From: Pseudomonadota bacterium
GTDB lineage: Bacteria > Pseudomonadota > Gammaproteobacteria > Burkholderiales > Burkholderiaceae
DNA length: 37,163 nt
Assembly: GCA_029777935.1 (NCBI GenBank)
Contig: JAKORH010000074.1
Coordinates: 1-37,163, forward strand
Direction of reading: 5' to 3'
The stretch's first letter is position 1, and every line of letters begins with the position of its first letter. The notes beneath the pieces were generated by a model that was not told the origin of the DNA, searched no databases, and saw only the letters and a program-made list of their open reading frames with translations. Below, one piece after another: positions 2,209 to 32,133 of the stretch. The position numbers and the translations under genes are program-made.

Positions 2209-2222
2209 TTGACCAGCGTCAA
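2209..2222. promoter_or_regulatory. FNR/FixK-type box upstream of the usp gene
   Basis: TTGACcagcGTCAA is a perfect 5-4-5 palindrome that fits the FNR/Dnr/FixK operator pattern TTGAY-N4-RTCAA. It lies in the 188-base gap between the DHH gene and the universal stress gene, 127 bases before the ATG at 2350. The likely binder is one of the two Crp/Fnr proteins encoded here (3778 and 28751). Confidence 0.7.
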
Positions 2223-2349
2223 GGGATCTCTTGCGCGATCTTGGATTCGCTGCGGATCGAGCGCAGATTTGGTGTCGAGAGCGAACAAGAATAAGTCTGC
2301 AAGCCGCACACTGGCGCTCCCGCTCGAACGTCGTGACTCGAGTGCGCTT

Positions 2350-3249
2350 ATGAGAATCCTGATCCCCGTCGACGGCAGCCGGCTGGCCCAGGATGCAGTC
2401 GAATTCGTCGCCGGCCGCTCCTCCCTGGTCGGTACCGCCCCCCATGTCGTACTGGTCAACGCGCAACTGCCGCTGTCGTCGCAGGCCGAGCGCATCATCG
2501 GCCGTGCGACGGCGCGCGGCATCCACCACGAGCAGGCGCTGAAGATCGCGCAGCCGGCGCTCGACCGGCTCGACCGAGCGGGCCTCGCACCGCAGCTCAA
2601 GGTGGCGATGGGCAGCCCGGCCGAGGCGATCGCGCGCGCAGCCGACGCCGGCCGAGCCGACCTGATCGTGATGGGTTCGCACGGCAGGAGCGGGATGAAG
2701 CGCGCGCTGCTCGGGTCGGTTGCCTACGGCGTATTGGCGCGCACGAACGTGCCGGTGCTGCTGCTGCGGGGAAGTGCGGTGCCGAAGCGCGATTCGCTGC
2801 GGGTGGCGATTGCGCTCGACGGCAGCCGGCTCGGGCTGCAGGCGGTGAAGTACGCGTTGCGCCACCTCGAGATGTTCGGCGCGCAGCCGTCGTTCGCGCT
2901 GGTGCACGTCGCGTCCGATCTGGTGATCCCGTTCGCCGGCGACATCGCGGGCGGGACGGCGATCGCGTTCACGCCGCAGCAGATCGAGGACATGCGCGAC
3001 GCGGCGTTCGAGGCGGCGTTCGGGCCCGCGCGCCGGCTGATGCGGCGCGCGCAGGTGCCGTTCACCGAAGTGAAACTGACCGGCGTGGCCGGCGACGAGA
3101 TCGCCGCCTACGCGCGCCGGCACGCGGACCTGACGCTGCTGGGTTCGCACGGCTACGGCGCGGTGCGCGCCGCGGTGCTGGGCTCGGTCGCGCAGCGCGT
3201 AGCGGCGCGCGGAACGACGCCGCTGCTGATCGTGCGGCCGCGCCGTTGA
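2350..3249 (+). CDS. Tandem universal stress protein (UspA family)
   Basis: A 299-residue protein with two UspA domains. Each begins with a strand-D-G-S motif (ILIPVDGSRLA; VAIALDGSRLG) and ends with the ATP-binding signature G-x2-G-x9-GS (GSHG...LGS near residues 113 and 275). Both copies therefore look competent for ATP binding. The ATG at 2350 is chosen because the domain begins directly at it; an in-frame start at 2209 would add 47 non-conserved residues and fall on the FNR-type box. Tandem Usps are typical of hypoxia and stationary-phase regulons. The host-attachment gene follows after 14 bases, probably in one transcript. Confidence 0.9.
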   Translation: MRILIPVDGSRLAQDAVEFVAGRSSLVGTAPHVVLVNAQLPLSSQAERIIGRATARGIHHEQALKIAQPALDRLDRAGLAPQLKVAMGSPAEAIARAADAGRADLIVMGSHGRSGMKRALLGSVAYGVLARTNVPVLLLRGSAVPKRDSLRVAIALDGSRLGLQAVKYALRHLEMFGAQPSFALVHVASDLVIPFAGDIAGGTAIAFTPQQIEDMRDAAFEAAFGPARRLMRRAQVPFTEVKLTGVAGDEIAAYARRHADLTLLGSHGYGAVRAAVLGSVAQRVAARGTTPLLIVRPRR

Positions 3250-3263
3250 AACGGAGCATGGAC

Positions 3264-3716
3264 ATGACGAAGCGAAACTGGATCGTGGTAGCCAACGGAT
3301 CGCAGGCCGCGCTGTACAGCCGCGATCCCGACGAAGAGGGATTTCGGCTCGCGCTGGAGCGCCAGTTCGAGCACCCTCAGGGCCGTAGCAAGGGAATGGA
3401 ACTGGCGACCGACCGGCCGGGCGCGGTGCGCGGACACGGCAGCGACAGCGCGCAGTACGTGCCGCGTGTCGATCCGAAGCGCAACGAGATGGAGCACTTC
3501 GCGCAGCGCCTGGCCGACGAGCTGGACGGCCTGCAGCGCGCGCAGAGGCTGGCGCGGCTGACGCTGGTGGCGTCCAACCCGTTTCTCGGCCTGTTGCGCG
3601 CGCGGCTGCCGGACGCGGTGCGCGACGCCGTCGAGGCGCAGGTCGCGCACGACTACACGGCGCTCGGCGAGCGCGAGCTGACTGAACGCCTGGCGGCCGC
3701 CACGGCGCAGACGTGA
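3264..3716 (+). CDS. Host attachment family protein
   Basis: A 150-residue protein resembling the 'host attachment protein' family (PF10116). Typical features are the TKRNWIVVANGSQAALY opening, a central GRSKGMELATDRPG stretch with basic and small residues, and a C-terminal segment (LVASNPFLGLLR) like that of release-factor-1-like folds. The family name comes from plant-associated bacteria, but the fold suggests an RNA- or ribosome-linked role, unproven. ATG at 3264 is preferred because ACGGAG at 3251 is correctly spaced from it; ATG 3258 is too close to that site. Probably cotranscribed with the usp gene. Confidence 0.8.
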   Translation: MTKRNWIVVANGSQAALYSRDPDEEGFRLALERQFEHPQGRSKGMELATDRPGAVRGHGSDSAQYVPRVDPKRNEMEHFAQRLADELDGLQRAQRLARLTLVASNPFLGLLRARLPDAVRDAVEAQVAHDYTALGERELTERLAAATAQT

Positions 3717-3777
3717 TGACGATCGCTCGCGCCGGCGGCAAGCGCATCCGGGAGATTCGAACGAAAAGGACAACATC

Positions 3778-4647
3778 ATGCTGCTCTCCAATGGCATCGA
3801 GCTTTCGGACCTGGCAGTGGAGGAGGCCGAGGCGACCGCGCCGTCGCGAATCGGCCTGCCGGTGATCGGCGCGCGTACCTTGCTCGCCGATGTGCTGCGG
3901 ATGCTCGGCTACCCGGCCGCGCAGAAGCTGCCGGTCATGCAACACACCTTCACCAACCGCCGCGTGCATCGCGGCCAGTCGCTGCTGCTGTCGGGGCAGC
4001 CATTCGAGCACCTGTATCTCGTGCTGTCGGGCAGCTTCAAGAGCACGCTGCACGAGGCCGACGGCTCGCAGCAAATCGTCGCGTTTCCGATGCGCGGTGA
4101 CCTGATCGGGCTGGATGCGAGCCAGTCCGGCCGCTACCCGGTGACGGTCGCGGCGCTGGAGGAATCCAACGTCGCGATGATCCCGCAGCGCGAACTGGTC
4201 GAACTGGTGCTGACCTGCCCGGTGCTCGAGGATGCGTTCATGAAGTCGGTCAGCGCCGAGCTGATGCGCACCTACCAGGCGATGCGCGCGATGGGCGCGC
4301 TCGGCGCCGAGGCGAGGCTCGCGCGTTTCCTGCACGACCTCGGCCAGCGGATGGCGCGCTTCGGCTTCTCGCCGCGCGCCTTTCGGCTGACCATGACGCG
4401 TTCGGACATCGCGAGCTATCTCGGCCTGTCGATCGAAACCGTCAGCCGCGCGTTCACGTCGCTCGCGACCCGCGGCCTGATCGAGGTCAGCCGCCGCAGC
4501 GTCCGCATAGCCGACGCGGTGCGCCTGGCGCACGCGGAGGAATTCGAGCCGCACAGCCTGCAGTTGCAGATCCACGAACACGCGCAGGGCGCGAAACCGG
4601 CGCGTCCCGTCGGCTTGCCGCCGCCGAAGCTGAAGCTCGTGAATTGA
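3778..4647 (+). CDS. Crp/Fnr family transcription regulator (copy 1)
   Basis: A 289-residue regulator with a cyclic-nucleotide-binding-like beta-roll (about residues 55-150), a dimerisation helix and a Crp-type winged helix (about 200-245). The recognition helix reads IETVSRAFT, keeping the E-x2-S-R pattern (E220, S223, R224) that FNR uses to read TTGAT half sites. The only cysteine is C147, so the N-terminal [4Fe-4S] ligands of true FNR are absent. It is therefore closer in type to FixK or Dnr, and oxygen sensing must come from elsewhere or from another ligand. A good AAAGGA precedes the ATG. It is clearly paralogous to the protein at 28751-29584. Expected targets are the TTGAY-N4-RTCAA boxes in this window. 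Confidence 0.9.
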   Translation: MLLSNGIELSDLAVEEAEATAPSRIGLPVIGARTLLADVLRMLGYPAAQKLPVMQHTFTNRRVHRGQSLLLSGQPFEHLYLVLSGSFKSTLHEADGSQQIVAFPMRGDLIGLDASQSGRYPVTVAALEESNVAMIPQRELVELVLTCPVLEDAFMKSVSAELMRTYQAMRAMGALGAEARLARFLHDLGQRMARFGFSPRAFRLTMTRSDIASYLGLSIETVSRAFTSLATRGLIEVSRRSVRIADAVRLAHAEEFEPHSLQLQIHEHAQGAKPARPVGLPPPKLKLVN

Positions 4648-4951: not shown

Positions 4952-5497
4952 TCACATCAGCTTGTGCTTGCCGACGCTGACGCGCTTGGCCTGCGGCCCC
5001 TCCGCAGCGGCCTCCTCGATGAACTGCACCGGGGTGCCGGGCGCCAGCGCGTCGAACGGCGGCGTCACGACGTTCTCGCGGCTGAAATACAGCTCGCGGC
5101 CGTCGGCGGTCTGGATGAAGCCGCAGCCGTCGGCGGCGAAGACGCGCGCGACCGTGCCGTGCTGCGGCACTTCGTGCAGCTTGACGTCGCCGCGCTGCTC
5201 GCGAATGTTCTCCTCGAGCCGGCGCCGGGCCGCGTCGAACGCGTCGCGCACCGCCACGTGCACGTCCTCGTCGTGATCGAGATTGACCGCGACCTCATGG
5301 CCGGGCACGCGCACGTCGATTCGCACGGAGAAATGGTGTCCTTGCTGGTGGTGCCGCCGGGTTTCTTCGACCGTCACGCGGCAACTGATGATCCGGGGAT
5401 GGAACCGCTCGAGCTTCCCGGCTTGCTTGCGGATGTCCGCCTCGAGCGCGGACGAACGTTCGAATCCGCGCATCGTGATCTGAAGTGGAACTTGCAT
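4952..5497 (-). CDS. HPF/RaiA-type ribosome hibernation factor with cold-shock domain
   Basis: A 181-residue fusion. Residues 1 to about 105 resemble the HPF/RaiA (S30AE) fold (LQITMRGFE, then HHFSVRIDVRVPGHEV and DVHVAVRDAFDAARRRLEE), which binds the 30S decoding centre in idle ribosomes. Residues about 112-181 form a cold-shock/OB domain (GTVARVFAADGCGFI, ELYFSREN) with RNP-like aromatic residues. The start at 5497 is supported by AAGGAAGGAAGG about seven bases upstream. This suggests a ribosome-preserving factor used in growth arrest. It is the last gene of the leftward cluster starting at 7215. Confidence 0.88.
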   Translation of the reverse strand: MQVPLQITMRGFERSSALEADIRKQAGKLERFHPRIISCRVTVEETRRHHQQGHHFSVRIDVRVPGHEVAVNLDHDEDVHVAVRDAFDAARRRLEENIREQRGDVKLHEVPQHGTVARVFAADGCGFIQTADGRELYFSRENVVTPPFDALAPGTPVQFIEEAAAEGPQAKRVSVGKHKLM

Positions 5498-5604: not shown

Positions 5605-6099
5605 TCAGCGGGTCCAGGTCACCCGCAGCAGGTTCTCTTCTTTGTTGTAGCGGTATTCCAGTTCACCCCCGTAAGCGGCGTGCACGGCCTCGCCGATGTC
5701 GCGCGCCAAGTGCGTGTCGGTGGTGGTGATCAGCACGGCGCCATCGACATCCTCGATCGCCATGATGCGTTCGAGCGGATGCTCGGCCTTCTCGTGCTCC
5801 TCGCGATTGCGCGACAGGTGCAGGATGTCGTCGCGGTGATCGGCGAGGAACGCGCCCTTCAGAGTGACGAAACCGGCCGGAAAGTGGTCGTGGATGCGGT
5901 GGCACGCGGGACACGTTTCTTCATGCGCCCCTGCCGGCGCCGGCAACCAGCGCCAGCGGCCCTCGTGGTATACGGCGCCGCACTGCGGGCAGCGAGTCGG
6001 CTCGGGCAGCTTTCTCTTCGACTTGTAGCTGTCATGGACCAGTTCGTCGCGCAATTCATCCCTTCTGAGCGGACGCCAGCCGTCGCGTGTCGCTTTCAT
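5605..6099 (-). CDS. BCAM0308-type zinc-ribbon protein
   Basis: A 164-residue soluble protein with two CxxC knuckles (RCPQCGAVY and CPACHRIH, near residues 38 and 65), which suggest a zinc ribbon. The C-terminal half (HLSRNREEHEKAEHPLERIMAIED, then a beta-rich end) looks like an NMD3-like RNA-binding fold. I recall this as the BCAM0308 family, named after a member of the low-oxygen-activated locus of Burkholderia cenocepacia; its function is unknown. It sits between DUF504 and the hibernation factor on the same strand, which fits a translation- or RNA-related role. Confidence 0.8.
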   Translation of the reverse strand: MKATRDGWRPLRRDELRDELVHDSYKSKRKLPEPTRCPQCGAVYHEGRWRWLPAPAGAHEETCPACHRIHDHFPAGFVTLKGAFLADHRDDILHLSRNREEHEKAEHPLERIMAIEDVDGAVLITTTDTHLARDIGEAVHAAYGGELEYRYNKEENLLRVTWTR

Positions 6100-6169: not shown

Positions 6170-6439
6170 TCAGGTCGGGGGCTTGGTCCGCCCGCGCTGC
6201 CAGATCAGTTCGCCGTTGCGATAGACCTCGCGCACCCGATGCAGCGGCACGTCGTGCGTCGACCCATCGGCTTCGACCGCGATGAACGAGAAACGGTTGC
6301 CCGGCTCGAACGCGACGCGCGCAAACGGGACGCGCACGGTGCGGCGGCGCACGCGATCGTGGTAGCCGATCTCGAATTGCGCGCGGCCGAACTCCGGATC
6401 CCAGCGGATCCGGTCGAGCAGCTTGTCAATCGGCATCAT
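6170..6439 (-). CDS. DUF504 (MJ1316-like RNA-end) protein
   Basis: An 89-residue protein with the whole DUF504/MJ1316 domain: LLDRIRWDPEFG at the N-terminus, IGYHDRVRRR in the middle and VPLHRVREVYRNGELIWQR at the end. The family has been linked to recognition of RNA cyclic-phosphate ends, largely by domain association. Its ATG overlaps the stop of the primase-polymerase gene by four bases, so the two should be translationally coupled. A function in RNA-end processing together with the upstream primase-polymerase is inference. Confidence 0.88.
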   Translation of the reverse strand: MMPIDKLLDRIRWDPEFGRAQFEIGYHDRVRRRTVRVPFARVAFEPGNRFSFIAVEADGSTHDVPLHRVREVYRNGELIWQRGRTKPPT

Positions 6440-7215: not shown

Positions 7216-7544
7216 CGTTTCCGGCGGCAGTCGAAGGAGTTTGCCGTCGCTCGCAGGATATCCGCATCTGCGCGCCGCGTGGATTCGATTGCCGCCGCGC
7301 CGACTCACGCTGCGCCGGGACGGAAGCGATGGCCGCCGGAACTCGATCTCCGGCGCCCAGTCGAACCTTGCGAAAGCGGGCGCGCGGTCGCGCGAGTTCG
7401 AGCGTCGCTTGACGTTCGTGCCAGGAGCCACGCGATGCCTGCGAGGATGCCGCGTGCCCGGATCGACCGTCGGCGAGTGGCGCGGCACGGCGTGCCGCCA
7501 GCCAGATGGCACCGCGCGGCCGGCTGAACGGCGTGGGAGCGGCG
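7216..7544. other. Divergent gap, primase-polymerase / ftsH
   Basis: This 329-base gap must hold both divergent promoters. I found no FNR-type palindrome in it. A TTGACG hexamer at about 7410 could be a -35 element for the ftsH side, with no convincing -10. The gap also contains a 30-codon ORF behind a strong Shine-Dalgarno sequence (7435-7527, listed separately). Confidence 0.4.
7435..7527 (+). CDS. Possible 30-residue Arg-rich leader ORF before ftsH
   Basis: The ATG at 7435 follows AGGAG with seven-base spacing and opens a 30-codon frame ending at TGA 7525-7527, 17 bases before the chosen ftsH ATG. The predicted peptide is very basic (MPARMPRARIDRRRVARHG...). It may be a leader peptide or a chance ORF in GC-rich DNA; only the start signal and position favour it. 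Confidence 0.25.
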   Translation: MPARMPRARIDRRRVARHGVPPARWHRAAG

Positions 7545-9422
7545 ATGCTCGAACGGAAGACACACTTCAACGTCGCATACCTGATCTTCGCGATCCTCGC
7601 GGTGCTGCTGCTGCAGAACCTGTGGACCGGTTACCGCACGATCGAGCCGCTGCCGTACAGCGACTTCATCGCACAGCTCGAGGCGGGCAACGTCGAGGCG
7701 ATCGCGGTCGGCGCCAACCAGATCCAGGGCACGCTGAAGAAGCCGCTGGCCGACGGGCGCAGGCAGTTCGTCACCACGCGTGTCGACCCGCGGCTGGCCA
7801 GCGACCTCGAGAAGTACCACGTCAAGTTCACCGGCGTGGTCGAGAACACGCTCTTCAAGGACCTGCTCGCCTGGGTCGTGCCGACGTTGATCTTCTTCGG
7901 CATCTGGTTCTTCTTCGTGCGCCGGATGCAGGAACGCGGCGGCATCGGACCCGGATTGCTGTCGATCGGCAAGAGCAAGGCCAAGGTGTACGTCGAGACC
8001 GACGTCAAGGTGACGTTCGGCGACGTGGCGGGTGTCGACGAAGCGAAGGACGAGCTGCGCGAAGTGGTCGGCTTCCTGAAGGACCCGCAGAAATACGGAC
8101 GGCTCGGCGCGCGCGTGCCGAAGGGCGTGCTGCTGGTCGGTTCGCCGGGCACTGGCAAGACGCTGCTGGCGCGCGCCGTGGCGGGCGAGGCGAGCGTGCC
8201 GTTCTTCTCGATCAACGGTTCCGAGTTCGTCGAGATGTTCGTCGGCGTCGGCGCCGCGCGCGTGCGCGACCTGTTCGAGGAAGGACGCAAGAAGGCACCG
8301 GCGATCATCTTCATCGACGAGATCGACGCGCTCGGCCGCGCGCGCGGCGCGTTCAGCCTCGGCGGCCATGACGAGAAGGAGCAGACGCTGAACCAGCTAC
8401 TGGCGGAGCTGGACGGATTCGATCCGCGCGTGGGGCTGGTGCTGATCGCGGCGACCAACCGGCCCGAGGTACTCGACCCGGCACTGCTGCGCGCCGGCCG
8501 CTTCGACCGCCAGGTGCTGGTCGACCGGCCCGACCGCGTCGGCCGCGTGCAGATCCTGCGGGTGCACGTGCGCAAGATCAGGGTCGAGCCGAAGCTCGAC
8601 CTCGACCAGATCGCCGCGCTGACGCCCGGGTTCTCCGGCGCCGATCTCGCCAATCTCGTGAACGAGGCGGCGTTGCAGGCGACCAGGCGCGGGCGCGATG
8701 TGGTCGATCAGGAGGATTTCACGCTGGCGATCGAGCGCATCGTCACCGGGCTGGAGAAGCGCAGCCGGCTGCTCAACTCGAAAGAGCGCGCGGTGGTGGC
8801 ACACCACGAAATGGGGCACGCGCTGGTCGCGCTCGCACTGCCCGCCACCGATCCGGTGCAGAAGGTATCGATCATCCCGCGCGGCATCGGCGCGCTCGGT
8901 TACACGCTGCAACGGCCGACCGAGGACCGCTACCTGATGGCGCGCAGCGAGCTGGAGAACCGCATGGCCGTGCTGCTCGGCGGCCGCGCGGCCGAGCAGC
9001 TCGTGTTCGACGAGCTGTCGACCGGCGCTGCCGACGACCTGGCCAAGGCGAGCGAGATCGCGCGCGCGCTGGTGGCGCGCTACGGCATGGATGCCACGCT
9101 CGGGCCGGTGGTGTACGAGACCGAGCGGCAGAAGTTCCTGCAGATCGACGCGCTGGTGCAGCCGCGCCACGAATACTCGGAGCAGACCGCGCGCGAGATC
9201 GATCTGGCCACCCGCGCGCTGGTCGAAGCGGCACTGGCCAAGGCGCTCGCCATCCTGACGCGCAAGCGCGCGCAGCTCGAGCGCGGCGCGCAGCTTCTGC
9301 TCGAGCGCGAGACGCTGACCGAGCAGGATCTGAAGGCGCTGGTCGCGCCGGCGCCGGCGGCGCGGCCCGAGGGTGCGACCGATGGTGCGACTGCCGAACG
9401 AGTCGCGGCGGAGGCGCACTGA
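7545..9422 (+). CDS. ftsH: FtsH-type membrane AAA+ zinc protease
   Basis: A 625-residue protein from ATG 7545 behind GGGAG; an in-frame ATG at 7506 would add 13 residues. Two membrane segments (about residues 9-26 and 110-130) frame a periplasmic domain. The AAA+ module has Walker A GSPGTGKT (199-206), Walker B IIFIDEID and the second region of homology [18 protein letters not shown]. The zinc site is HEMGH (421-425), with Met where housekeeping FtsH usually has Ala. The enzyme extracts and degrades membrane and regulatory proteins. Lack of the usual rlmE/folP neighbours and the stress-gene context suggest an accessory copy rather than the essential one. Confidence 0.92.
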
Positions 9423-12010: not shown

Positions 12011-12044
12011 TGCAGGGCTGTCACCGCGGCCCGGAGGTGCACGT

Positions 12045-20622: not shown

Positions 20623-21384
20623 TTACAGCCGCGACTTCGCGAACCCGCGCACGCGCTGCTGCGTGTCGGCATCCGCGAACATCGCGGCGGCGGCGTGCCG
20701 CTCCGCTTCGAGTGCGGTGGCGAGGCGATCGCCGACCTGCGCGGTCAGCGCGCGCTTCAGCCGCGCGATCGCGCCGGCCGACCGCGCGGCGACCGTATGC
20801 GCGAGTTCCAGCGCGGCCGGCAGCATCTGCTCCACTGCTACCACGCGATTGACGAGGCCGAGCCGCGCGAGCGCGTGTGCGTCGTGGCGCTCGCCGAGCA
20901 CGATCAGCTCCATCGCGCGCTGGTGGCCGAGCGCCTGCGGCAGCAGGTGCGTGACGCCGCCGGTGACGAAGTGGCCGAGTGCCATCTCGGGAAAGAACGC
21001 GACGAGGCTGTCGGCGGCGACCACGAGGTCGCAGTTCAGCAGCCACTCGAGCCCGCCGCCGACCGCGTAGCCGTGCGCGGCGGCGATCACCAGCCGGTCG
21101 CCGAACATGAGGTCGCGCGTGATTTGCTGGATGCGGTCGACGTGCTCGGCGATCGACGCGGCGTCGTGTGCCTGCTCGTCGAATTCCTTCAGGTCGTCGC
21201 CGGCGCAGAACGCTCGGCCGGCGCCGGTCAGCACGATGGCGCGCGCTGCGCGGTCGGCCTGGGCTTGCGCGAGCGCGGCGTGCAGATCGACCATCAGCGC
21301 GCCGCTGATGGCGTTCAGCCGCTCGGGGCGGTTCAGCGTGACGACGCGGACCGGACCGTCATTGGAGAGAGTGACATAGCTCAT
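20623..21384 (-). CDS. Enoyl-CoA hydratase/isomerase family protein
   Basis: A 253-residue crotonase-fold protein. GAGRAFCAGDDLKEF forms the first oxyanion-hole strand, and AAHGYAVGGGLEWLLNCDLVVAAD the second. The catalytic Glu of classical hydratases (usually in the GGG-E-L region or E144-like site) has an equivalent in GGGLEWLLNCD, and FFPEMALGHF replaces the usual FxxPEVxLG segment. Its ATG overlaps the ligase stop (ATGA). It is probably paired with the ligase in degradation or activation of an unsaturated acid; the substrate is not readable. Confidence 0.87.
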   Translation of the reverse strand: MSYVTLSNDGPVRVVTLNRPERLNAISGALMVDLHAALAQAQADRAARAIVLTGAGRAFCAGDDLKEFDEQAHDAASIAEHVDRIQQITRDLMFGDRLVIAAAHGYAVGGGLEWLLNCDLVVAADSLVAFFPEMALGHFVTGGVTHLLPQALGHQRAMELIVLGERHDAHALARLGLVNRVVAVEQMLPAALELAHTVAARSAGAIARLKRALTAQVGDRLATALEAERHAAAAMFADADTQQRVRGFAKSRL

Positions 21385-23094: not shown

Positions 23095-23108
23095 TTGATC
23101 GGGGTCAA
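23095..23108. promoter_or_regulatory. FNR/FixK-type box upstream of the PAS kinase
   Basis: TTGATcgggGTCAA matches TTGAT-N4-ATCAA with one change. It lies 82 bases before the kinase ATG and 121 bases from the divergent ligase ATG. Binding of a Crp/Fnr protein here would give feedback onto the two-component system. Confidence 0.68.
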
Positions 23109-23190: not shown

Positions 23191-26100
23191 ATGCAAGCAG
23201 CGCGGATCAACCTGCAGGAGCACCCGTTTCAAAGGCTGCTCGATGCGGCCGCCGACGCGATGCTGGTGGCTGACGCGGACGGCACGATCGTCGCCGCCAA
23301 CGCAGCGGCGGCGCGGCTCTTCGGCTGCGACCCGCAGGCGCTGCTGCAGGCCGCGGTGGAAGAACTGATGCCGGAGCGCTACCGCGCCGCGCATCGCCTC
23401 ATGCGCGCGCGGTACGCGCGCGAGCCTCGCGTGCGCGCGATGGGCAACGCCTACGAGGTGCGCGGCCTGCGCCGCGACGGCACGGAATTCTTCATCGAGG
23501 CGAGCCTGGGTCCGCTCGACCAGGGCCAGGTGCTGGTCACGCTGGTCGATGTGACCGAACGGCGTCGCGCCAGCGACGCATTGCGCAAGTTCGCCCGCGC
23601 GATCGAGCAGACCGCGAGCACGGTCGTGATCACGAATTCCGACGGCGTGATCGAGTACGTGAATCCGCGGTTCGTAGAAACGACCGGCTACGTCGCTGCC
23701 GAGGCGATCGGCCGCAAGCCGAGCCTGGTGAAGTCCGGCCACACGTCCACCGATGAATACCGGCAGTTATGGCGCACGATCATCGGCGGCGGCACCTGGC
23801 GCGGCGAATTCCGTAACCGCCGCAAGGACGGCTCGCTGTACTGGGAGTCGGCGATCATTTCGCCGGTGCGCGACGAGCGCGGCGACATCACGCATTTCGT
23901 CGCCGTCAAGGATGACGTCTCCGCGCACAAGGCGATGGACGCGGCGCTGCGCACGAGCGAGCAGTTGCGGGCGGCCGCATTCAACAGCAGCAGTGTCGGG
24001 ATGGCGCAGATCGATCCGGCCTCGCGGCGCCTCGTCGCCGTGAACCCGGCGCTGTGCCGCATCTGCGGCTACAGCCATGCCGAACTGCTGCAGATGGATG
24101 TCGACCGGCTCAACCACCCGGACGATCGCCTCGATCCGGCGAAGTTCGATGCCTTGCTGCGCGGAGCCGGATACGAGGAGGAGAAGCGCCTGGTGCGCAA
24201 GGACGGGTCCGTCGCGTGGGTCCACGTGTCGGGGAGCGTGGTGCGGGACGCCGACGCGCGTCCCGTGATCGTCGTGGGTGTCGTGCAGGATGTCACCGCG
24301 CGCCGGCAGGCGCAGGAGGCGCTGGCCGCGCGCGAAGCCCGGCAATCGTTCCTCGTGCGCCTGAACGATGGCCTGCGCCGGCTCGACGACCCGCAGCAGA
24401 TCAGCTTCGAGGCGGCGCGGATGCTGGGCGAATTCGTCGGAGCGTCACGGGTCGGTTATGCGGAGGACGACGGCAACGGCGAGACGATCACCGCAGCGCG
24501 CAACTACGCCGCCGGCGTGCCCGCTATCGAGGGTTGCTACCGCTACGACGACTACGGCGCGGCGCTGCTGGCCGATCTCCGGGCGGGTCGCACGAACGTG
24601 CGGCCGGACATCGCCAACGATCCGTCGCTCGCCGCGCAGGAGAAGGCCGCGCACGCGGTGCTGCAGCTCGGAGCGACCGTCAACGTGCCGCTGCTCAAGG
24701 CGCAGCAACTGGTCGCGGTCTTCTTCGTCCACGCCGCGACCGCGCGGGCATGGACGGCCCACGAAGTGGCCCTGTTCGAAGACGTGGCCGAGCGAATCCG
24801 CGCCGACATCGAGCGCGCCCGCGCCGAGGCGGCGCTGCGGACGCGCGAAGGCCAGTTGGGCCTGTTCATCGACCATGCACCGGCCGCACTGGCGATGTTC
24901 GACCCTCAGATGCGCTACCTGGCGGTGAGTCGCCGCTGGCTCGAGGATTACGGCTTGCAGGCACCGGTGCTGGGCCGCTCGCACTACGACGTCTTTCCCG
25001 AGATCGGATCGCGCTGGCGCGAGGTGCACCGCCGCTGCCTCGGCGGCGCAACCGAGCGCTGCGACGAAGACCGCTTCGACCGTGCCGACGGCACGACGCA
25101 ATGGCTGCGGTGGGAAGTCCTGCCATGGCGCGCCGCCACCGGGGCAATCGGCGGCATCGTCATCTTCAGCGAGGACATCACGGAACGGGTACAGGCGCGG
25201 CCGCGATCGAGGAATCCGAAGCGCGCTTCCGCGCCACGTTCGAGCAGGCGGCGGTCGGAATCGCGCATTCCGATCCCGGCGGGCGCTGGCTGCGCGTCAA
25301 CCAGAAGCTGTGCGAGATCACCGGCTACAGCCGCGACGAACTGCTGCAGCGGTCGTTCCAGGACATCACGCACCCCGACGACCTGGCCGCCGACCTGGCG
25401 CTGCTGCAGCGGCTGCTCGCCGGCGAAATCGACCACTACGCCATCGACAAGCGCTGCGTGCGCAAGGACGGCACGACCTACTGGGTCCGGCTGACGGTCT
25501 CGCTGCAACGGCGCTCCGACGGCACGCCCGACTACACGATCGCGGTCATCGAATACATCGACGAGCGCAAGCGGACGGAGCAGGCGCTGCGCCGACTGCG
25601 CGGCGAGATGGAGCAATTGCTCACCGTGCACATCGCGGCCGAAACCGCGGCGGCGATCGCGCACGAATTGAACCAGCCGCTCAACGCCCTGGCCTCGTAT
25701 TGCGAGGCGGCATGGCGCATGCTGCAGTCGGGCAATCCGAAACCGGAAAGGCTGATGCACGCGCTGCGCGAACGCACCGCGCAGGCGCAGCGCGCCGGCC
25801 GGGTCGTGCGCGAGCTGCTCGAGTTCCTGCACCGGCGCGAGGTGACGACCGAGACCGTCGACCTGAATGCCGTCGTGCGCGAGGCGCTGTCGATCGTCGA
25901 GGCCAACGGCTTCGGCGGTTTCCAGGCGGTGGTGAATCTGGAACCGGACCTGAAGCCGGTCCAGGCCAATCGCCTGCAGGTGGAAAAGGTGCTGGTGAAC
26001 CTGCTGCGCAATTCGGTCGAAGCGATGCGCGGCGCCGGTTTTGCGACGCAGGCGATCACGATCTCGATCAGCACCGCAGCCGAACAGCAGATGGCGCTGG

Positions 26101-26306
26101 TGACGGTGCGCGACAGCGGGCCGGGGATGGACGATGCCGTCGCGCGGCGCGTGTTCGATCCGTTCTTCACCACCAAGCCGCAAGGAATCGGCATGGGGCT
26201 GGCGATCAGCCGCGCGCTGGTCGAGGCCAACGGCGGCCGGCTGTGGCTCGAGGAGCCCGCCGCGGGCGGCGCGACGTTTCACTTCACCTTGCCCTTCGCC
26301 ACATGA
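23191..26306 (+). pseudogene. Multi-PAS/GAF FixL-like histidine kinase, frameshifted
   Basis: The coding is intact to about 25196, then continues one frame over to 26306, so one base is missing in the GC run at 25192-25200. Joined, it is ~1,038 residues: PAS1 (about 10-125), PAS2, PAS3, GAF (near 24340-24840), PAS4, PAS5 (after the shift), a HisKA-like box IAHELNQPLNAL with the phospho-His at 25662, and HATPase_c motifs (NLLRNSVEAM, DSGPGMDD, GIGMGLAIS). PAS1 resembles the FixL haem PAS (MPERYRAAH, H68, R74). All catalytic boxes are intact, so a sequencing or assembly error is possible; if real, the sensor is split from its kinase core. Its stop overlaps the response regulator ATG. Confidence 0.85.
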
Positions 26307-26956
26307 CCGCCCCCACCGTGTTCGTGGTCGACGATGACGCGGCGGTGCGCGACGGCCTGGCGCTGCTGCTGGAAACCGCCGGCCTCGCGGTCGAGACGTT
26401 CGACAGTGCCGGGGCCTTTCTGGCCGCGTTCGATCCCGAGCGCCCCGGATGCCTGGTGCTGGACGTGCAGATGCCCGGCAGGACCGGGCCGGAACTGCAG
26501 GCGGAGATGAATCGGCGCGGCCTGCGGCTGCCGGTCATCTTCCTGACCGCGCACGGCGACATTCCGACCACCGTGCAGGCGATGAAGGGCGGCGCGGTCG
26601 ATTTCCTCACCAAGCCCATCGACGCGCCGCTTCTGCTGGAGCGCGTGAAACAGGCACTCGAACGCGACGGCCGGCAGCGCGAAGCCGAGGCGGCCAGGCG
26701 TGCGGCGCGCTCTGTGATCGCCGGCCTGACCGGGCGCGAACGGGACGTGCTCGCGCTTGCCGTGGCCGGGCTGCCGAACAAGGAAATCGCGCAGCGGCTC
26801 GGGATCAGCTATCGCACGGTCGAAGTTCACCGCTCGCGCATCCTGCTGAAGACCGGCGCCTCGACGTTGTTGGGCCTGGCGCAGCTCGCGCATGAAGGCG
26901 GGCTCGAGTTCGGTCCGGCCGAGGCGTCGCATCCGCCCGGGTATGAAGCGCATTGA
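26303..26956 (+). CDS. FixJ-like response regulator
   Basis: A 217-residue regulator. The receiver has VDDD at the start, phospho-acceptor D54 in LVLDVQMPG, T82 and K104, at the same positions as in FixJ. The output is a LuxR/NarL-type HTH whose core, AGLPNKEIAQRLGISYRTVEVHRSR, closely recalls FixJ. ATG 26303 overlaps the kinase stop (ATGA), so the HK and RR form one operon. It is expected to be phosphorylated by the upstream kinase and to activate downstream genes, plausibly the Crp/Fnr gene at 28751 as FixJ activates fixK. Confidence 0.92.
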   Translation: MTAPTVFVVDDDAAVRDGLALLLETAGLAVETFDSAGAFLAAFDPERPGCLVLDVQMPGRTGPELQAEMNRRGLRLPVIFLTAHGDIPTTVQAMKGGAVDFLTKPIDAPLLLERVKQALERDGRQREAEAARRAARSVIAGLTGRERDVLALAVAGLPNKEIAQRLGISYRTVEVHRSRILLKTGASTLLGLAQLAHEGGLEFGPAEASHPPGYEAH

Positions 26957-27353
26957 CTGCATGTGTCTTGCCGCTGCCACTCACGTTGAAGCGTTATGAG
27001 TCGACACGTACGTGGCGGCCGGAATTTTGTGCGCCGTGTCGCTCTGCTGCAATGGTGGCCAGATGAGGATTCGGTGGACATCGCCGCATCGTCCGGCTGC
27101 CGGTGCATTCCTGTGCGCGACGGGCCGCCCCAGAACGCGCGAAGTGTCGCGGGAGGATTGTGTAGATGAATTCAGCTTGTATCGCGACGCAGGCCGGGCC
27201 GGCACCGAACGCGCACGCTTGGTCGATCGGAGTCGGATTCGCACCCGACGCGGGCGAAGCCGCGCCGGTTTGCGCGAGCCTGCCATGTACGCGCCGCGGT
27301 GCTCCGCCCGAAATGCAGACCGCGTTCGAGCGCCAGCGCGGCCGGGTGAGCTG
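26957..27353. other. Gap between FixJ-like gene and diguanylate cyclase
   Basis: This 397-base stretch holds no FNR-type palindrome and no clear terminator. The upstream half is relatively AT-richer (for example GGAATTTTGTGCG near 27022), so a promoter for the diguanylate cyclase/Crp pair is plausible here. The right half contains a 62-codon ORF (27166-27354) behind GGGAGG. Confidence 0.35.
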
Positions 27354-27354
27354 A
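27166..27354 (+). CDS. Possible 62-residue protein preceding the diguanylate cyclase
   Basis: The ATG at 27166 lies about 10 bases after GGGAGG, and the stop TGA (27352-27354) shares its A with the ATG of the diguanylate cyclase (TGATG), the usual look of translational coupling. The peptide has three Cys (CIA, VCASLPC) and no recognisable domain. Codon usage is less biased than in neighbours. It may be a small coupled protein, a leader, or a chance ORF. Confidence 0.35.
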   Translation: MNSACIATQAGPAPNAHAWSIGVGFAPDAGEAAPVCASLPCTRRGAPPEMQTAFERQRGRVS

Positions 27355-28754
27355 TGACGTCGATCGAAGTGCGGTCAGGCGACGGCGGCGCGGCGCTCCG
27401 GAACGTCGAAGGCGAGACCCAGCGCGCCGTGCTGCTGGCCGATGCGGGCGGTCGGATTCTGTTCTGCAGTGCGCTGCAGTCGCCGCTGTGGACGCAACTG
27501 ACGGTCGATCGGATGTTCGTCGGACCGGACGGCCATGTGGTGTTCTGCCGCGACCAGCAGCCGCCGCTGACCGATCGGCTCGCCGAGGAGCTGGTGGGCG
27601 TCGACGTCGAAGCGCTGCTGCCAGGTCTCGGGTTCCGGCGCTGTGTTCGCGAATGCAGCGACGGGGACCGCCGCGAACACACGGCCTGCGCGGAAACGAA
27701 CGTCGGCGACGTTCACGTCGCCGCGACGATCCGTCGCCTGCCGAGCCCGATGTTGCCGCTGTTCGCGGTCGACGTGTCGCTGCGCAGGGCCAGAGGTGGC
27801 CGCAACGGCGGGCTGCCGGCGCTCGCGCTGGCACTGGAGTGCTCGGCCGATGCGCTGCTGCTGACCGACATCGACGGCGTGATCCAGCACGTGAACCCGG
27901 CGTTCGAATCGATGACCGGCTATGCGCGCGTCGAGACGATCGGCCGCACGCCGGCCGTCCTCCTGAACTCGGGGCACCAGTCGCGCGACTTCTACCGTGC
28001 GTTGTGGGATGCGCTGCGCGGCGGCAACGAGTTTCGCGGCACGTTCGTGAACCGGCGCAGAGACGGCGAGATCTTCCACGAGGAGGAAACCATTCGTCCG
28101 CTGTTCGACACGCAAGGTTCGATCACGCACTTCATGTCGGTCGGCCGCGACGTGAGCGGCCGCGTGCGGCTGATTGAGCGGCTGACGCACGCCGCCACGC
28201 ACGACGCGCTGACCGACCTGCCGAACCGCGCGTTGTTCCACGACCGGCTGGCGCAGGCGCTGCGCCACGCGGAGCGCGGCGGCGAGTCGTTTGCCGTGGT
28301 GATCGTCGATATCGACCGCTTCAAGGCGATCAACGACGCGTACGGGCACGCGGCCGGCGACGCGATCATTCGCGCGGTGGCGGCGCGGCTGCAGGCGAGC
28401 GTGCGCGCGGCCGACACCGTGGCGCGCCTCGGTGGCGACGAATTCGGCCTGCTGCTGCTGGACCAGCACGGCGCGGCGGGCACCGAGCGGGCGCTGGCGA
28501 AGATCGTGCACGCGTTCGCCTCGCCGCTGACGATCGGTGCGCATCGATTCGCGCTGACGGTGAGCATCGGCGCGGCGCTGTCGCCGGCGGGTGCGCCGGA
28601 CCTGCAGGCCCTGTTCGAACGCGCCGACCGCGCGATGTACGCAGTCAAGCGCGCGGGCGGCAGCGGCTGCCGGATCGATAGCGGCGAGCGCTCCGCCGCA
28701 AGACGAGCGGCGGCCGGCGCCGAAGTGGGGACCGCCGACACGGTGCCGGCGTGA
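27354..28754 (+). CDS. PAS-GGDEF diguanylate cyclase
   Basis: A 466-residue protein. An N-terminal ~155-residue PAS-like domain of unclear type is followed by a clear PAS (about 165-280: ALLLTDIDGVIQHVNPAFESMTGY, then EFRGTFVNRRRDGEIFHEE). The GGDEF domain has DALTDLPNRALFHDRL, IDIDRFKAINDAYGHAAGD and the intact active site GGDEF (360-364). An RxxD inhibitory site (R351-D354) sits five residues before it, so it should make c-di-GMP with product feedback. No EAL domain. Its stop overlaps the GTG start of the Crp/Fnr gene, tying c-di-GMP synthesis to that regulator. Confidence 0.9.
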   Translation: MTSIEVRSGDGGAALRNVEGETQRAVLLADAGGRILFCSALQSPLWTQLTVDRMFVGPDGHVVFCRDQQPPLTDRLAEELVGVDVEALLPGLGFRRCVRECSDGDRREHTACAETNVGDVHVAATIRRLPSPMLPLFAVDVSLRRARGGRNGGLPALALALECSADALLLTDIDGVIQHVNPAFESMTGYARVETIGRTPAVLLNSGHQSRDFYRALWDALRGGNEFRGTFVNRRRDGEIFHEEETIRPLFDTQGSITHFMSVGRDVSGRVRLIERLTHAATHDALTDLPNRALFHDRLAQALRHAERGGESFAVVIVDIDRFKAINDAYGHAAGDAIIRAVAARLQASVRAADTVARLGGDEFGLLLLDQHGAAGTERALAKIVHAFASPLTIGAHRFALTVSIGAALSPAGAPDLQALFERADRAMYAVKRAGGSGCRIDSGERSAARRAAAGAEVGTADTVPA

Positions 28755-29584
28755 CGCTGTCCGGCCTCGCGCTTACGGGCGATACGCGCCTGCACCTGCC
28801 GGAAATCAGCGCGCAATCGACGCTGGCCGACCTGCTGAAGCTGCTCGGCCATGCGCCGCTCGATGCAGGGGTGCCCGAGCGTCGCTTCGCCAACCGCCGT
28901 GTGCACCGCGGCCATTGTCTGGTCCATGCGAACCAGCCGCTGGAGAGCCTGTATGTCGTGCTGTCGGGCAGCTTCAAGTGCACGCTCATCGAGGCCGATG
29001 GCTCAGAGCAGGTGGTCGCGTTCCCGATGCGCGGCGACCTGATCGGGCTCGACGCGATCCGCGGCGCGAGCTACCCGGCCACGATCACGGCGCTGGAAGA
29101 GGCCAATGTCGCGGCGATTCCGTATCCGGAGCTGGCAGCGCTGGCGCGGCTGTGTCCGTACCTCGAGCGCGCCCTGATGGCGTCGGTCAGCGCCGAGTTG
29201 ATGCGCGGCTACCAGGTGATGCGCGCGATCGGCGTGCTCGGCGCGGAAGCGCGGGTCGCGCATTTCCTGCACGGGTTCGGCGCGCGCGTGGCGCGCTTCG
29301 GATTCTCCGCGCGCGCACTGCGGCTGCCGATGTCGCGCGCCGACATCGCGAGCTACCTCGGCATGTCGATCGAGGCGGTCTGCCGCGCGTTCACGGCGCT
29401 CGCTGCGCGCGGGCTGATCGAGGTGCGCCGGCGCAGCATCCGTGTGCTCGATCAGCAACGGCTCGGCCGCCTGCTCGACGTCGAGCCGCGCAGTGCGGCG
29501 AGTCCGGCCACGCGCCAGCGCGCTCCCGCGGCGATCGCGGTCGAAGCGCCGCTGCGGCGCCGGGCCAGCGGCGGCCTTGCCTGA
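28751..29584 (+). CDS. Crp/Fnr family transcription regulator (copy 2)
   Basis: A 277-residue paralogue of the regulator at 3778, with nearly identical blocks (LSGSFKCTLIEADGSEQVVAF; RGDLIGLDA). The start is GTG 28751, overlapping the cyclase stop (GTGA). It has no cysteine before residue 56, so the FNR iron-sulphur cluster ligands are absent; Cys occur at 56, 77, 135 and 211. The recognition helix reads IEAVCRAFT: E208 and R212 keep the FNR pattern, but Ser is replaced by C211. It occupies the place of fixK in a FixLJ-K-like order. The C-terminal ~45 residues are basic and low complexity. Confidence 0.9.
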   Translation: MTLSGLALTGDTRLHLPEISAQSTLADLLKLLGHAPLDAGVPERRFANRRVHRGHCLVHANQPLESLYVVLSGSFKCTLIEADGSEQVVAFPMRGDLIGLDAIRGASYPATITALEEANVAAIPYPELAALARLCPYLERALMASVSAELMRGYQVMRAIGVLGAEARVAHFLHGFGARVARFGFSARALRLPMSRADIASYLGMSIEAVCRAFTALAARGLIEVRRRSIRVLDQQRLGRLLDVEPRSAASPATRQRAPAAIAVEAPLRRRASGGLA

Positions 29585-29781: not shown

Positions 29782-29795
29782 TTGGCCTGCGTCAA
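29782..29795. promoter_or_regulatory. FNR/FixK-type box upstream of the CBS gene
   Basis: TTGGCctgcGTCAA has one mismatch (G for A in the left half) to TTGAY-N4-RTCAA. It lies 57 bases before the ATG at 29853, a distance compatible with activation from about -41.5. Confidence 0.55.
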
Positions 29796-29852: not shown

Positions 29853-30320
29853 ATGCGCATCGGCGAAATCTGCACGCGTGAAGTGGTCTACTGCGAACGC
29901 CACACCGGCATCGTCGAGGTGGCGCAGCTGATGCGGCGTCACCATGTCGGCGACGTGATCGTGGCCGATGCCGTCGGCGACACGCTGCGGCCGGTCGGCA
30001 TCGTGACCGATCGCGACCTGGCGGTCGAGGTGCTCGCGCAACGGGCCGACCCTGACGCGCTCACCGCACACGACCTGATGAGCCAGGACCTCGAGCTGGT
30101 CCGCGAAGGCGAGCACGTCTACGACGCGATCGTGCGCATGCGCGAGCACGGCGTCAGCCGCCTGCCGGTGATCGACGAGTGCGATGCCCTGATCGGCGTG
30201 CTGACCGCCGACGACGTGAACGAATTCCTCGCCGAGGAGCTGACCCTGGTCGCCGGCATCGTTCCGCGCCAGATCGCGCACGAGAAGACGGCGCGCTCGG
30301 CGCCCGACATCACGATCTGA
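29853..30320 (+). CDS. Two-CBS-domain protein
   Basis: A 155-residue protein behind AAGGAG (six-base spacing). CBS1 spans about residues 5-68 (ICTREVVYCERHTGIVEVAQLMRR...VGIVTDRDLAVEVLA) and CBS2 about 73-132 (LMSQDLELVREGEHVYDAIVRMREHGVSRLPVID...GVLTADDVNEFL). Paired CBS domains bind adenosine nucleotides or NAD-type ligands and act as energy sensors; no catalytic domain is attached. The FNR-type box just upstream places it among the putative low-oxygen genes. Confidence 0.9.
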   Translation: MRIGEICTREVVYCERHTGIVEVAQLMRRHHVGDVIVADAVGDTLRPVGIVTDRDLAVEVLAQRADPDALTAHDLMSQDLELVREGEHVYDAIVRMREHGVSRLPVIDECDALIGVLTADDVNEFLAEELTLVAGIVPRQIAHEKTARSAPDITI

Positions 30321-30327: not shown

Positions 30328-30639
30328 TCAGTGGTCTTCGATGCGCGGCCGCTGCTCCTCGGCCGGCTCCTGCGTGTCAGGATCGATCCAGTCCGCGATG
30401 CCGATCTCGTCCTCGGCTTCCTGCAGCGTTTCGCCGGGCTCGGCTGCCGATTCCTCGGTGTGCATCATGTCGGCCAGTGCGTCCTCGAACGCAGCGAACG
30501 GCCCCGTTTCGCGCTTGCCGTCTTCCGAGGTCCAGTAGTAGCCGTCGGGGTGCTGCACGATGCGCGTCGTATCGGCGTCGGCGGCCGGCTCGAGCGGCGG
30601 TGCCGGGTGCCGCAGGCGGGTTCTGCGTTTCGTCGTCAT
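30328..30639 (-). CDS. Small acidic protein of unknown function
   Basis: A 103-residue, strongly acidic protein. The central VQHPDGYYWTSEDGKRETGPFAAFEDALADMM looks like a small conserved fold in which a GYYW-x-DG hairpin is followed by 'GPF...EDALADM'. The tail is rich in Glu/Asp. No function recognised. The start at 30639 is chosen because the conserved-looking part follows and the longer frame overlaps pncB. A perfect FNR-type palindrome is centred about 64 bases upstream. Confidence 0.65.
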   Translation of the reverse strand: MTTKRRTRLRHPAPPLEPAADADTTRIVQHPDGYYWTSEDGKRETGPFAAFEDALADMMHTEESAAEPGETLQEAEDEIGIADWIDPDTQEPAEEQRPRIEDH

Positions 30640-30696
30640 GATCGATGGGCTTCGTCTCAGTTCAATTTCACCGTACTCGCCGCACACTCTGCACGC

Positions 30697-30710
30697 TTGA
30701 CCCGAGTCAA
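30697..30710. promoter_or_regulatory. FNR/FixK-type box upstream of the small acidic gene
   Basis: TTGACccgaGTCAA is a perfect 5-4-5 palindrome. It lies 57 bases from the ATG at 30639 and covers the stop codon of pncB, so it serves the small acidic gene although pncB is upstream on the same strand. Confidence 0.68.
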
Positions 30711-32068
30711 TCGCGCTCCGGCCGCGTGCGGCGATCCACTTCGTCGGCCAGCGCGCGCAGCGCGCGCGAAACGCTGACCTCGTAGTGCGCTGCCGGCGCA
30801 TCGAGCTCGCGCAGCGATTCCGGCAGCAATGCGAGCTGCGCCCGCGCGTACGCGCGGATGTCGGACAGCGCCGGCAACGGCGCCACCAGCTCTCCATCGC
30901 GCAGCAGCGGCACCAGTAAGGGCGTGCCGGGCTGTGCATCGCCTTCGAGCGACAGCACGTCGTGCGCAAAGCGCCCCTGCGCGTCGAGCGTGCGGAACAC
31001 CTGCTTGCGCCCCGGCCACGAGGCCTTGCCTTCGGAGCGCTTGCGCCGGCCCTGGTGCGCGTACTCGGCGAGCTTGTAGGCGCAATCGAGGAACGGTGCG
31101 TCCGCCGACGTGTTCATGCGCGTGCCGACGCCGTACGCGTCGATCGGCGCGCCCTGCGCGACCAGATCGCGCAGCCGGTACTCGTCGAGGTTGCCGCTGG
31201 CGAAGATCTGCGCGCGCGCGAGCCCGCCTTCGTCGAGGATGCGGCGCACGCGCCGCGCGTGCTCGGCGAGGTCGCCGCTGTCGATGCGCACGCCGCGGAT
31301 CGCGATGCCTTCCGCGGCAAGCTGGCGCGCGACCGCGACCACCTTGCGCGCCCCGGCCTCGGTGTCGTAGGTGTCGATCAGCAGCGTGGCGTTGTTGGGC
31401 TGCGCGCGCGCGAACTGCAGGAACGAGGCCGCCTCGTCGTCGTGCGCCTGCACGAACGAGTGCGCCATCGTGCCGAACACCGGGATGCCGAACCGTTGAC
31501 CGGCGAGCGCGGTCGCGGTGCCGGTGAAGCCGGCGATGTAGCTGGCGCGCGCCGACAGCAGCCCGGCTTCGGCGCCGTGCGCGCGCCGCAGGCCGAAGTC
31601 GATCAGCGCCTTGTCTCCGGCGGCGAGCACGCAGCGCGCAGCCTTGGTCGCGACCGTGGTCGCGTAGTGCAGCAGGTTCATCACGCGGCTTTCGACGAGC
31701 TGCGCCTCGCGCATCGGCGCGGTGATGCGCACCAGCGGCTCGTCGGCGAACACGATCGTGCCTTCCGGCACCGCGTGCAGATCGCCGGTGAAACGCAGGC
31801 CCTCCAGCGAAGCGAGGAAATCGCCGGTGAACAGCCGCGTAGCCGCCAGCCACTCGAGATCGGCGCGCGTGAAAGCGAGATCGCGCAGGAATTCGACCAC
31901 CTGCGCCAAGCCCGCCGCCATCAGGAAGCTCCTCTCGGCCGGCAGCTTGCGCACGTAGAGCTCGAACACCGCCGTGTCGTTCATGCCGGTGGCCGCGTAG
32001 GCCTGCAGCATCGTCAGCTCGTACAGGTCGGTCAGCAGCGCGCTGGATTCGGCGGGCGGCGCGGTCAT
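30707..32068 (-). CDS. pncB: Nicotinate phosphoribosyltransferase
   Basis: A 453-residue enzyme of the NAPRTase family, converting nicotinate, PRPP and ATP to nicotinate mononucleotide in the Preiss-Handler NAD salvage route. Landmarks: LLTDLYELTMLQAY at the N-terminus, GLRRAHGAEAGL, GTMAHSFVQAHDDE (the phosphorylated His region), LLIDTYDTEAG, VRIDSGDLAEHARRVRRILD, IFASGNLDEY and YGVGTRMNTS. Length fits the shorter, bacterial/archaeal-type group. It is divergent from prs, the gene supplying its co-substrate, with a shared FNR-like box between them. Confidence 0.93.
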   Translation of the reverse strand: MTAPPAESSALLTDLYELTMLQAYAATGMNDTAVFELYVRKLPAERSFLMAAGLAQVVEFLRDLAFTRADLEWLAATRLFTGDFLASLEGLRFTGDLHAVPEGTIVFADEPLVRITAPMREAQLVESRVMNLLHYATTVATKAARCVLAAGDKALIDFGLRRAHGAEAGLLSARASYIAGFTGTATALAGQRFGIPVFGTMAHSFVQAHDDEAASFLQFARAQPNNATLLIDTYDTEAGARKVVAVARQLAAEGIAIRGVRIDSGDLAEHARRVRRILDEGGLARAQIFASGNLDEYRLRDLVAQGAPIDAYGVGTRMNTSADAPFLDCAYKLAEYAHQGRRKRSEGKASWPGRKQVFRTLDAQGRFAHDVLSLEGDAQPGTPLLVPLLRDGELVAPLPALSDIRAYARAQLALLPESLRELDAPAAHYEVSVSRALRALADEVDRRTRPERD

Positions 32069-32119
32069 TGCGGTCCTATGCTCTCGATGGCTGACATTTC
32101 CACCACGAGATTACTCGCG

Positions 32120-32133
32120 TTGACCGCCCTCAA
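32120..32133. promoter_or_regulatory. FNR/FixK-like box between pncB and prs
   Basis: TTGACcgccCTCAA matches TTGAY-N4-RTCAA except for one base in the right half. It is the only such element in the 100-base divergent gap, 51 bases from the pncB ATG and 35 from the prs ATG. Confidence 0.55.

Follow-up and report, generated by a model that had tools for sequence, protein, structure and literature searches.

Predicted FNR-type operators in a putative low-oxygen stress island of a Burkholderiaceae bacterium

Background

Do the short palindromes that recur between the genes of a bacterial stress locus form a genuine regulatory code, and which signal would such a code serve? The question is raised by a 37,163-nucleotide stretch of DNA from a bacterium of the family Burkholderiaceae (assembly GCA_029777935.1, contig JAKORH010000074.1, positions 1 to 37,163), which was analysed as a whole and is called the window below. 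An earlier note on this DNA had described five 14-base elements of the type TTGAY-N4-RTCAA and had interpreted them as FNR/FixK-type operators of a low-oxygen regulon. The observation was confirmed in part: six intergenic boxes look like genuine FNR-type operators, as predicted from the sequence. Probably they are operators of the FNR family (FNR/FixK/DNR-type), through which a low-oxygen stress and persistence island is turned on. This reading is based on the spacing and the placement of the boxes, their conservation, their genome-wide enrichment in G001, the genome of the window's nearest relative, and the position of -10-like hexamers.

Results

The window was scanned with TTGAY-N4-RTCAA, allowing either no mismatch or at most one, and the counts were compared with those obtained in 100 shuffles. 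Three perfect matches were found (2209, 23095 and 30697; shuffle mean 0.02), and at up to one mismatch there were seven (shuffle mean 1.0, largest shuffle 4), the additional ones starting at 22633, 29782, 32120 and 36695. At the same stringency the spacers N2, N3, N5 and N6 gave no match in the window, and the reversed pattern gave one. Six of the seven matches have their centre in intergenic DNA, which makes up 9.6% of the window according to a hand-set gene list (binomial p ~5e-6). The single coding match, at 22633, has one mismatch and lies inside the acyl-CoA ligase gene. Its location is what could be said in favour of chance palindromes; the excess over shuffles, the spacing specificity, the intergenic placement and the conservation described below already contradict such an origin, whose probability we regard as negligible, and this explanation was rejected. 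All six intergenic boxes lie outside the segment 9423-20580, a distribution that is weakly unexpected (chance ~0.04).

The five elements reported earlier (2209, 23095, 29782, 30697 and 32120) were thus all recovered, and by the hand-set gene list each of them is centred between genes, in an upstream or divergent gap as claimed. Only 2209 and 30697 had been listed as perfect; 23095 is a perfect match as well, which brings the number of perfect sites to three. A sixth intergenic box, at 36695 upstream of nfeD, had been overlooked, and the statement that no box occurs within 9481-22973 does not hold on the note's own criterion, because 22633 matches at one mismatch, though within coding sequence. 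No RNA families were found at gathering scores.

A scan of contigs for relatives returned five loci, of which one was close (L001, from a metagenome bin, 81% identity in the regulator gene crp2); its genome is G001. Among 399 sampled members of the order, two matched at E 1e-45, one being G001 and the other only 41% identical. The aligned blocks of the window and G001 are approximately 76-87% identical, and four of the six boxes (2209, 30697, 32120 and 36695) could be aligned base to base with boxes in this one relative. Box 1 (2209..2222, TTGACCAGCGTCAA, perfect), located upstream of usp (start ~2350), the first gene of usp-baeRF-crp1, aligns with G001 C147:5949 (TTGATCGGGGTCAA). Box 4 (30697..30710, TTGACCCGAGTCAA, perfect) lies upstream of a small acidic gene on the minus strand and overlaps the final bases of pncB; it is identical over its 14 bases to C147:22035, amid diverged flanks. 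Box 5 (32120..32133, TTGACCGCCCTCAA, one mismatch) is in the divergent pncB/prs gap and is conserved as C147:23463. Box 6 (36695..36708, TTGATGGCCGTCAG, one mismatch), upstream of nfeD on the minus strand, aligns with C147:27860 (TTGACGGCCATCAG); bases have changed on both sides and the palindrome has been kept, in flanks that are conserved too. Box 2 (23095..23108, TTGATCGGGGTCAA, perfect) occupies the divergent gap between the acyl-CoA ligase gene (minus strand) and the PAS histidine kinase gene (plus strand). It shares only the gap with G001, where a perfect box (C147:17270) stands between ligase and sensor kinase genes without base-by-base alignment. Box 3 (29782..29795, TTGGCCTGCGTCAA, one mismatch), upstream of the CBS-domain gene, is the one without a counterpart. 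A further box, the seventh, is to be expected immediately beyond the left edge of the window: the AAA_33 gene is cut by this edge, and its start in G001 carries a perfect box (C147:3238).

The earlier note had named a motif at background level, in coding DNA and elsewhere in the genome, as the finding that would speak against a regulon. The genome-wide background test was run on G001, and such a situation was not found. In G001 perfect sites number 33, whereas the reversed pattern occurs 4 times; the spacer controls gave 0 for N5 (its own control 4) and 6 for N3 (its own control 9). When genes were called by a codon-based method with the window as training set, 29 of the 33 sites fell outside them. 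C147:17270 is in-gene only by a miscalled extension of the acyl-CoA ligase, the ligase homology ending short of the site; of the other three, one falls in a weak call of 74 residues, a second at the 3' end of a ThiF gene that immediately precedes a usp gene, and the third inside an HD-domain gene. A background motif in coding DNA was therefore rejected for G001 by the reversed and spacer controls and by gene placement. In the family of G001 the motif outnumbers the reversed pattern in all 67 members available for comparison, some of the margins being small (7 vs 6, 8 vs 7), which indicates that the promoter code itself is ordinary in this group.

The genes that carry boxes in G001 include hemN together with a divergent Crp/Fnr protein having cysteines at positions 20, 23, 29 and 122, and genes for NorB, a c552-type cytochrome, a multihaem cytochrome, a cytochrome b with ferredoxin domains and COX1. 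The small subunit of a NiFe hydrogenase, a hydrogenase protease, a P-type ATPase, NqrA, a DksA/TraR zinc finger protein and two Usp genes (one in L012, the other syntenic with the usp of the window) are boxed as well.

In class II activation by FNR the box is centred at -41.5. A -10-like hexamer, defined as NANNNT (A in position 2, T in position 6), was scored at each distance from the box centre. In G001 the sample consisted of the 29 sites with a suitably oriented gene start no more than 250 bases away (4 of 33 without one were excluded). The hexamer was present at +29/+30 on 22 of 36 gene sides, corresponding to 21 of the 29 sites, whereas at the other offsets the count averaged 2.3 and never exceeded 6. 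This is the distance at which a box centred at -41.5 would place the -10 element. In the window four of nine gene sides have the hexamer at +29/+30 (background rate 0.053, p ~8e-4), so that four of the six boxes show class II geometry: 23095 toward the kinase gene (TACCGT at +29), 29782 toward the CBS gene (GAACAT at +29), 30697 toward the acidic gene (TACGGT at +29; TAGGTT in G001) and 32120 toward prs (TAGCGT at +29, kept in G001 along with the box). Box 32120 had been placed in front of both pncB and prs. The geometry fits prs, but there is none of the kind toward pncB, and a role as pncB promoter is unsupported, since the hexamer is not at the class II offset on that side.

The geometry also bears on the possibility that at some promoters, especially those of usp and nfeD, the boxes are repressor sites or sites of distal (class I or looping) activators. 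For usp no -10-like hexamer was found at +29/+30 in either the window or G001, which suggests that the usp promoter may work differently. The nfeD box passes the test in G001 (TAACGT at +29) and fails it in the window (TGACGT). Set against the 21 of 29 testable sites in G001 and the four of six window boxes with class II geometry, we consider this alternative unlikely.

Two Crp/Fnr-family regulators, crp1 (3778..4647, plus strand) and crp2 (28751..29584, plus strand), are encoded in the window. They are paralogues of each other (60%), and the best relative of crp2 among solved structures is an FNR type regulator. Both remain below the NCBIfam cut-offs for Fnr (PRK11161; crp1 141.6 and crp2 131.1 bits, cut-off 228) and for Caulobacter FixK (83 and 75.5 bits, cut-off 300). 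Crp1 has one cysteine and crp2 four scattered ones, and CxxCx5C is present in neither. Crp1 and crp2 were therefore rejected as classical [4Fe-4S] Fnr proteins, the four ligand cysteines not being there. A CxxCx5-7C motif near the N terminus was likewise found in none of the 19 other listed relatives of at least 55% identity (P0001, P0006-P0023; two of these are short and perhaps truncated). The recognition helix has the form ExxSR in crp1 of the window (IETVSR) and in both G001 orthologues, and ExxCR in crp2 of the window (IEAVCR). A cysteine at this helix position also occurs in a metagenome relative (P0023).

These features bear on an alternative in which the chromosomal four-cysteine Fnr is the sole user of the boxes, crp1 and crp2 being merely Fnr targets that bind other sites. 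The canonical Fnr of G001, encoded beside hemN and provided with a box of its own, would fit this arrangement, as would the changed recognition helix of crp2 in the window. On the other hand, ExxSR is kept in crp1 of both genomes, in crp2 of G001 and in most close relatives, and we regard the alternative as rather improbable. Under the preferred reading, in which FNR-family proteins including crp1 and crp2 use the boxes, gene order becomes relevant. Two apparent operons start at a box and end with a crp gene (usp-baeRF-crp1 and kinase-regulator-GGDEF-crp2), an arrangement that suggests feed-forward control or self-amplification.

The first PAS domain of the kinase (23191..26306, plus strand) matches FixL; the histidine that we take to be the haem ligand of FixL is aligned, and a tyrosine stands in the column of what is presumably the FixL distal arginine. 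Near 25.2 kb the reading frame is broken, so that the PAS/GAF kinase domains are spread over two frames and the gene is not intact, owing either to a real mutation or to an assembly or sequencing error. The adjoining gene encodes a FixJ/StyR-type LuxR response regulator (26303..26956, plus strand), whose best solved relatives are 1yio (E 1.5e-54), presumably StyR, and FixJ 5xso (E 3e-42). It is followed by a gene for a PAS-GGDEF protein (27012..28754, plus strand). This two-component slot before crp2 (23191-28754) differs between the window and G001, and a perfect box is in the gap of both. In G001 the slot (L051:17304-19472) is occupied by genes for a PAS/HisKA_3 kinase and for a LuxR-type regulator that shares only 30% identity with that of the window.

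The exchange of the sensor is one of the observations that would agree with FNR-family operators whose main signal is nitric oxide (DNR/NnrR-like) or redox state acting via crp1 and crp2, oxygen having an indirect effect: in G001 the slot is not occupied by a FixL/FixJ-like pair. The lack of the FNR cysteine cluster in crp1 and crp2, the presence of norB among the boxed genes of G001 and the near-identical target sites that FNR, FixK and DNR are described to recognise in Alphaproteobacteria (PMC2908626) point in the same direction. The G001 set as a whole (hemN with Fnr, hydrogenase, cytochromes, COX1, P-type ATPase and Usp) nevertheless reads as an oxygen regulon, and the sensor PAS of the window is FixL-like. 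A primary nitric oxide or redox signal seems to us quite unlikely.

The remaining genes of the island were annotated by Pfam and NCBIfam. At the far left of the window the AAA_33 kinase gene and a DHHA1-like gene precede usp (2350..3249, plus strand), which encodes a universal stress protein with two Usp stretches by Pfam. The next gene encodes a baeRF/Host_attach family protein (3258..3716, plus strand; Pfam), matched in G001 by a short remnant only. On the other side of crp1 the minus strand encodes a ribosome hibernation-type protein (4952..5473), in which an S30AE domain is fused to a cold-shock domain (Pfam; the NCBIfam match is below cut-off), and a protein of the lxa_BCAM0308 family (5605..6054; NCBIfam equivalog NF040826.1, 216.2 bits, cut-off 100). 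An MJ1316-domain gene adjoins a primase-polymerase gene within the stress island (6170-7563, minus strand), and this pair is conserved in G001. An FtsH-type protease (7506..9422, plus strand) is the final conserved gene of the left arm.

To the right of crp2 lie the genes for the CBS-domain protein (29853..30320, plus strand), the small acidic protein (30328..30639, minus strand; 82% identity in G001 and one weak plasmid relative), the nicotinate phosphoribosyltransferase PncB (30707..32068, minus strand) and the ribose-phosphate pyrophosphokinase Prs (32178..33122, plus strand), for which the GTG start at 32178 was deduced from the G001 alignment. Just upstream of box 3, between 29620 and 29690, there is a palindromic, repeat-like stretch (cccgcgaaagcgggcatcc ... 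ttcccgcttgcgcgggaatgac) that, in our view, resembles the dispersed palindromes of proteobacteria. The gene at 33270-34310 gave no Pfam or NCBIfam match and has relatives of 43-45% in Azospirillum and S. fredii islands. Genes for SPFH/band-7 and NfeD-type membrane proteins (34307..36588, minus strand) follow.

The boxes had also been thought to delimit two arms separated by unrelated genes. By genome alignment the segment 9423..20580 has no counterpart at this place in G001. There the left arm (usp, crp1, hibernation factor, BCAM0308, primase, ftsH) directly adjoins the enoyl-CoA hydratase and acyl-CoA ligase genes, and window positions 9359 and 20581 correspond to G001 positions 14803 and 14822. 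Since the arms are contiguous in G001 without the block, the unrelated block is the segment of approximately 9.4-20.6 kb. The division into two arms is supported by this comparison, but the block does not extend over 9.5-23.0 kb: the enoyl-CoA hydratase and acyl-CoA ligase genes (20623..22973, minus strand), formerly counted among the unrelated middle genes, are conserved in G001 and are part of the island. The block encodes an HpcH aldolase, ECF sigma factors, a Ser/Thr kinase with TPR, a di-haem oxidoreductase, a cupredoxin and a phosphoesterase; within it, at 10311-15391, an ECF sigma/anti-sigma pair and a second ECF sigma factor lie beside the Ser/Thr kinase gene. The best relative of this kinase elsewhere in G001 is only 46% identical. 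No direct repeats of at least 14 bases were found within either border region of the block, each border being searched by itself. The block may have been inserted in the window or lost in G001.

Discussion

The low-oxygen regulon reading of the earlier note is supported by these results; we infer the oxygen response itself, as well as activation rather than repression and the identity of the binding protein. In the mechanism that we propose, an FNR-family dimer centred near -41.5 would contact RNA polymerase and activate the operon of the PAS kinase, prs and the genes for the CBS-domain protein and the small acidic protein; usp and nfeD would probably be activated as well. A canonical [4Fe-4S] Fnr encoded elsewhere (beside hemN in G001), crp1 and crp2 would most likely share the boxes. 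Through crp1 and crp2 the boxes may build a feed-forward or self-amplifying loop, with the FixL/FixJ-like pair feeding crp2.

Besides the behaviour of the usp and nfeD promoters (see above), several observations weigh against this interpretation. The window was compared with a single available close relative, G001, and the genome-wide scan was made in that genome. Where box 3 would be expected G001 retains no more than the 3' part of a CBS-like gene. Some boxed genes of G001 have no obvious link to oxygen (a solute-binding protein, wax-ester synthase, DAHP synthase and others), and several gave no Pfam match. The helix cysteine of crp2 is at what we take to be the position of FNR Ser212. Finally, an Azospirillum island (L069) that contains hibernation factor, BCAM0308, pncB, prs, Usp and Crp/Fnr genes as in the window has no perfect box and five with one mismatch.

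The kinds of genes involved are largely those known from Alphaproteobacteria, where the predicted targets of FNR comprise Usp, P-type ATPase, HemN, cytochrome oxidase and DnaK suppressor, those of FixK comprise FixL, FixJ and a CBS-domain protein, and the core regulons of FNR, FixK and DNR also include Hsp20 (PMC2908626). The window differs from these regulons in belonging to another class and in having its boxes gathered in one island. A term search of the main text of that paper gave no nicotinate phosphoribosyltransferase or ribose-phosphate entry.

The content of the window had also been said to recall the low-oxygen-activated (lxa) locus of Burkholderia, for which approximately 50 genes with six Usps are described (PMC6127331). 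The resemblance holds in that the window combines a Usp, regulators and the one lxa_BCAM0308 equivalog in a single island. The window is not the lxa locus, since among the open reading frames scanned there is a single, two-domain Usp and, by Pfam, no Hsp20. FixLJ of B. dolosa induces fixK under low oxygen (PMC5234846), uspA of B. cenocepacia H111 is a neighbour of anr2 and, like anr2, is important for survival without oxygen (PMC9104464), and a small heat shock protein gene (hsp20) of R. leguminosarum is driven by FnrN from an anaerobox (PMC11784457). In the betaproteobacterium Herbaspirillum seropedicae several Fnr paralogues share promoters, and two uspA genes are direct targets co-activated by Fnr1 and Fnr3 (PMC5934665); these proteins are described as Fnr orthologues, whereas crp1 and crp2 lack the cysteine cluster.

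Boxes accompany similar genes on several plasmids. In S. fredii pSF45436d (L071) perfect boxes occupy the gaps of CBS/prs, usp/groL and ppsA/glk and also precede hsp20. The set of this plasmid is exceptionally dense: a 31-kb stretch has 8 perfect boxes and the 201-kb plasmid 33, compared with 0 for the reversed pattern. It shares the pair of usp and 'host attachment protein' genes with the window, but gene order and class differ. On a plasmid of Cupriavidus sp. USMAHM13 (L068) usp, ftsH and pncB are near one another, with perfect boxes before usp and hsp20; the 31-kb stretch has 3 such boxes in all, and once a single mismatch is allowed motif and reversed pattern are equal (7 each). A C. oxalaticus plasmid (L072) has a BCAM0308-like gene, ftsH and pncB, and 4 perfect boxes in 41 kb. 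Neither Cupriavidus stretch (L068, L072) contains a close match to crp1 or crp2. The neighbourhood of the acidic gene in Ideonella (L070) has no perfect box and three with one mismatch, and that of pncB in Burkholderia stagnalis (L067), where of the window proteins only PncB and a weak HpcH match were found, has one box with one mismatch.

Conclusions

The island is a new example of a well-known bacterial control circuit and not a new kind of system; no description of it was found among the records retrieved. Two features are unusual: the presence of two FNR-like paralogues that lack iron-sulphur cysteines, and the exchanged sensor slot. A tentative interpretation of these features, which may be correct but is not the likelier outcome, is that the island is a self-contained, swappable low-oxygen amplifier, in which the cysteine-less crp1 and crp2 end box-started operons and re-use the Fnr box, and in which the sensor slot is exchanged between lineages without a change of the box. 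If this is true, one promoter code could be driven by different signals.

The predicted operators had been picked out from raw sequence by a reader using no tools. They link an FNR-type promoter code to persistence genes (usp, the BCAM0308 family, hibernation factor, CBS, pncB/prs and SPFH/NfeD) in a little-known lineage, and would offer a simple, testable example in which two FNR paralogues and exchanged sensors act on one operator.

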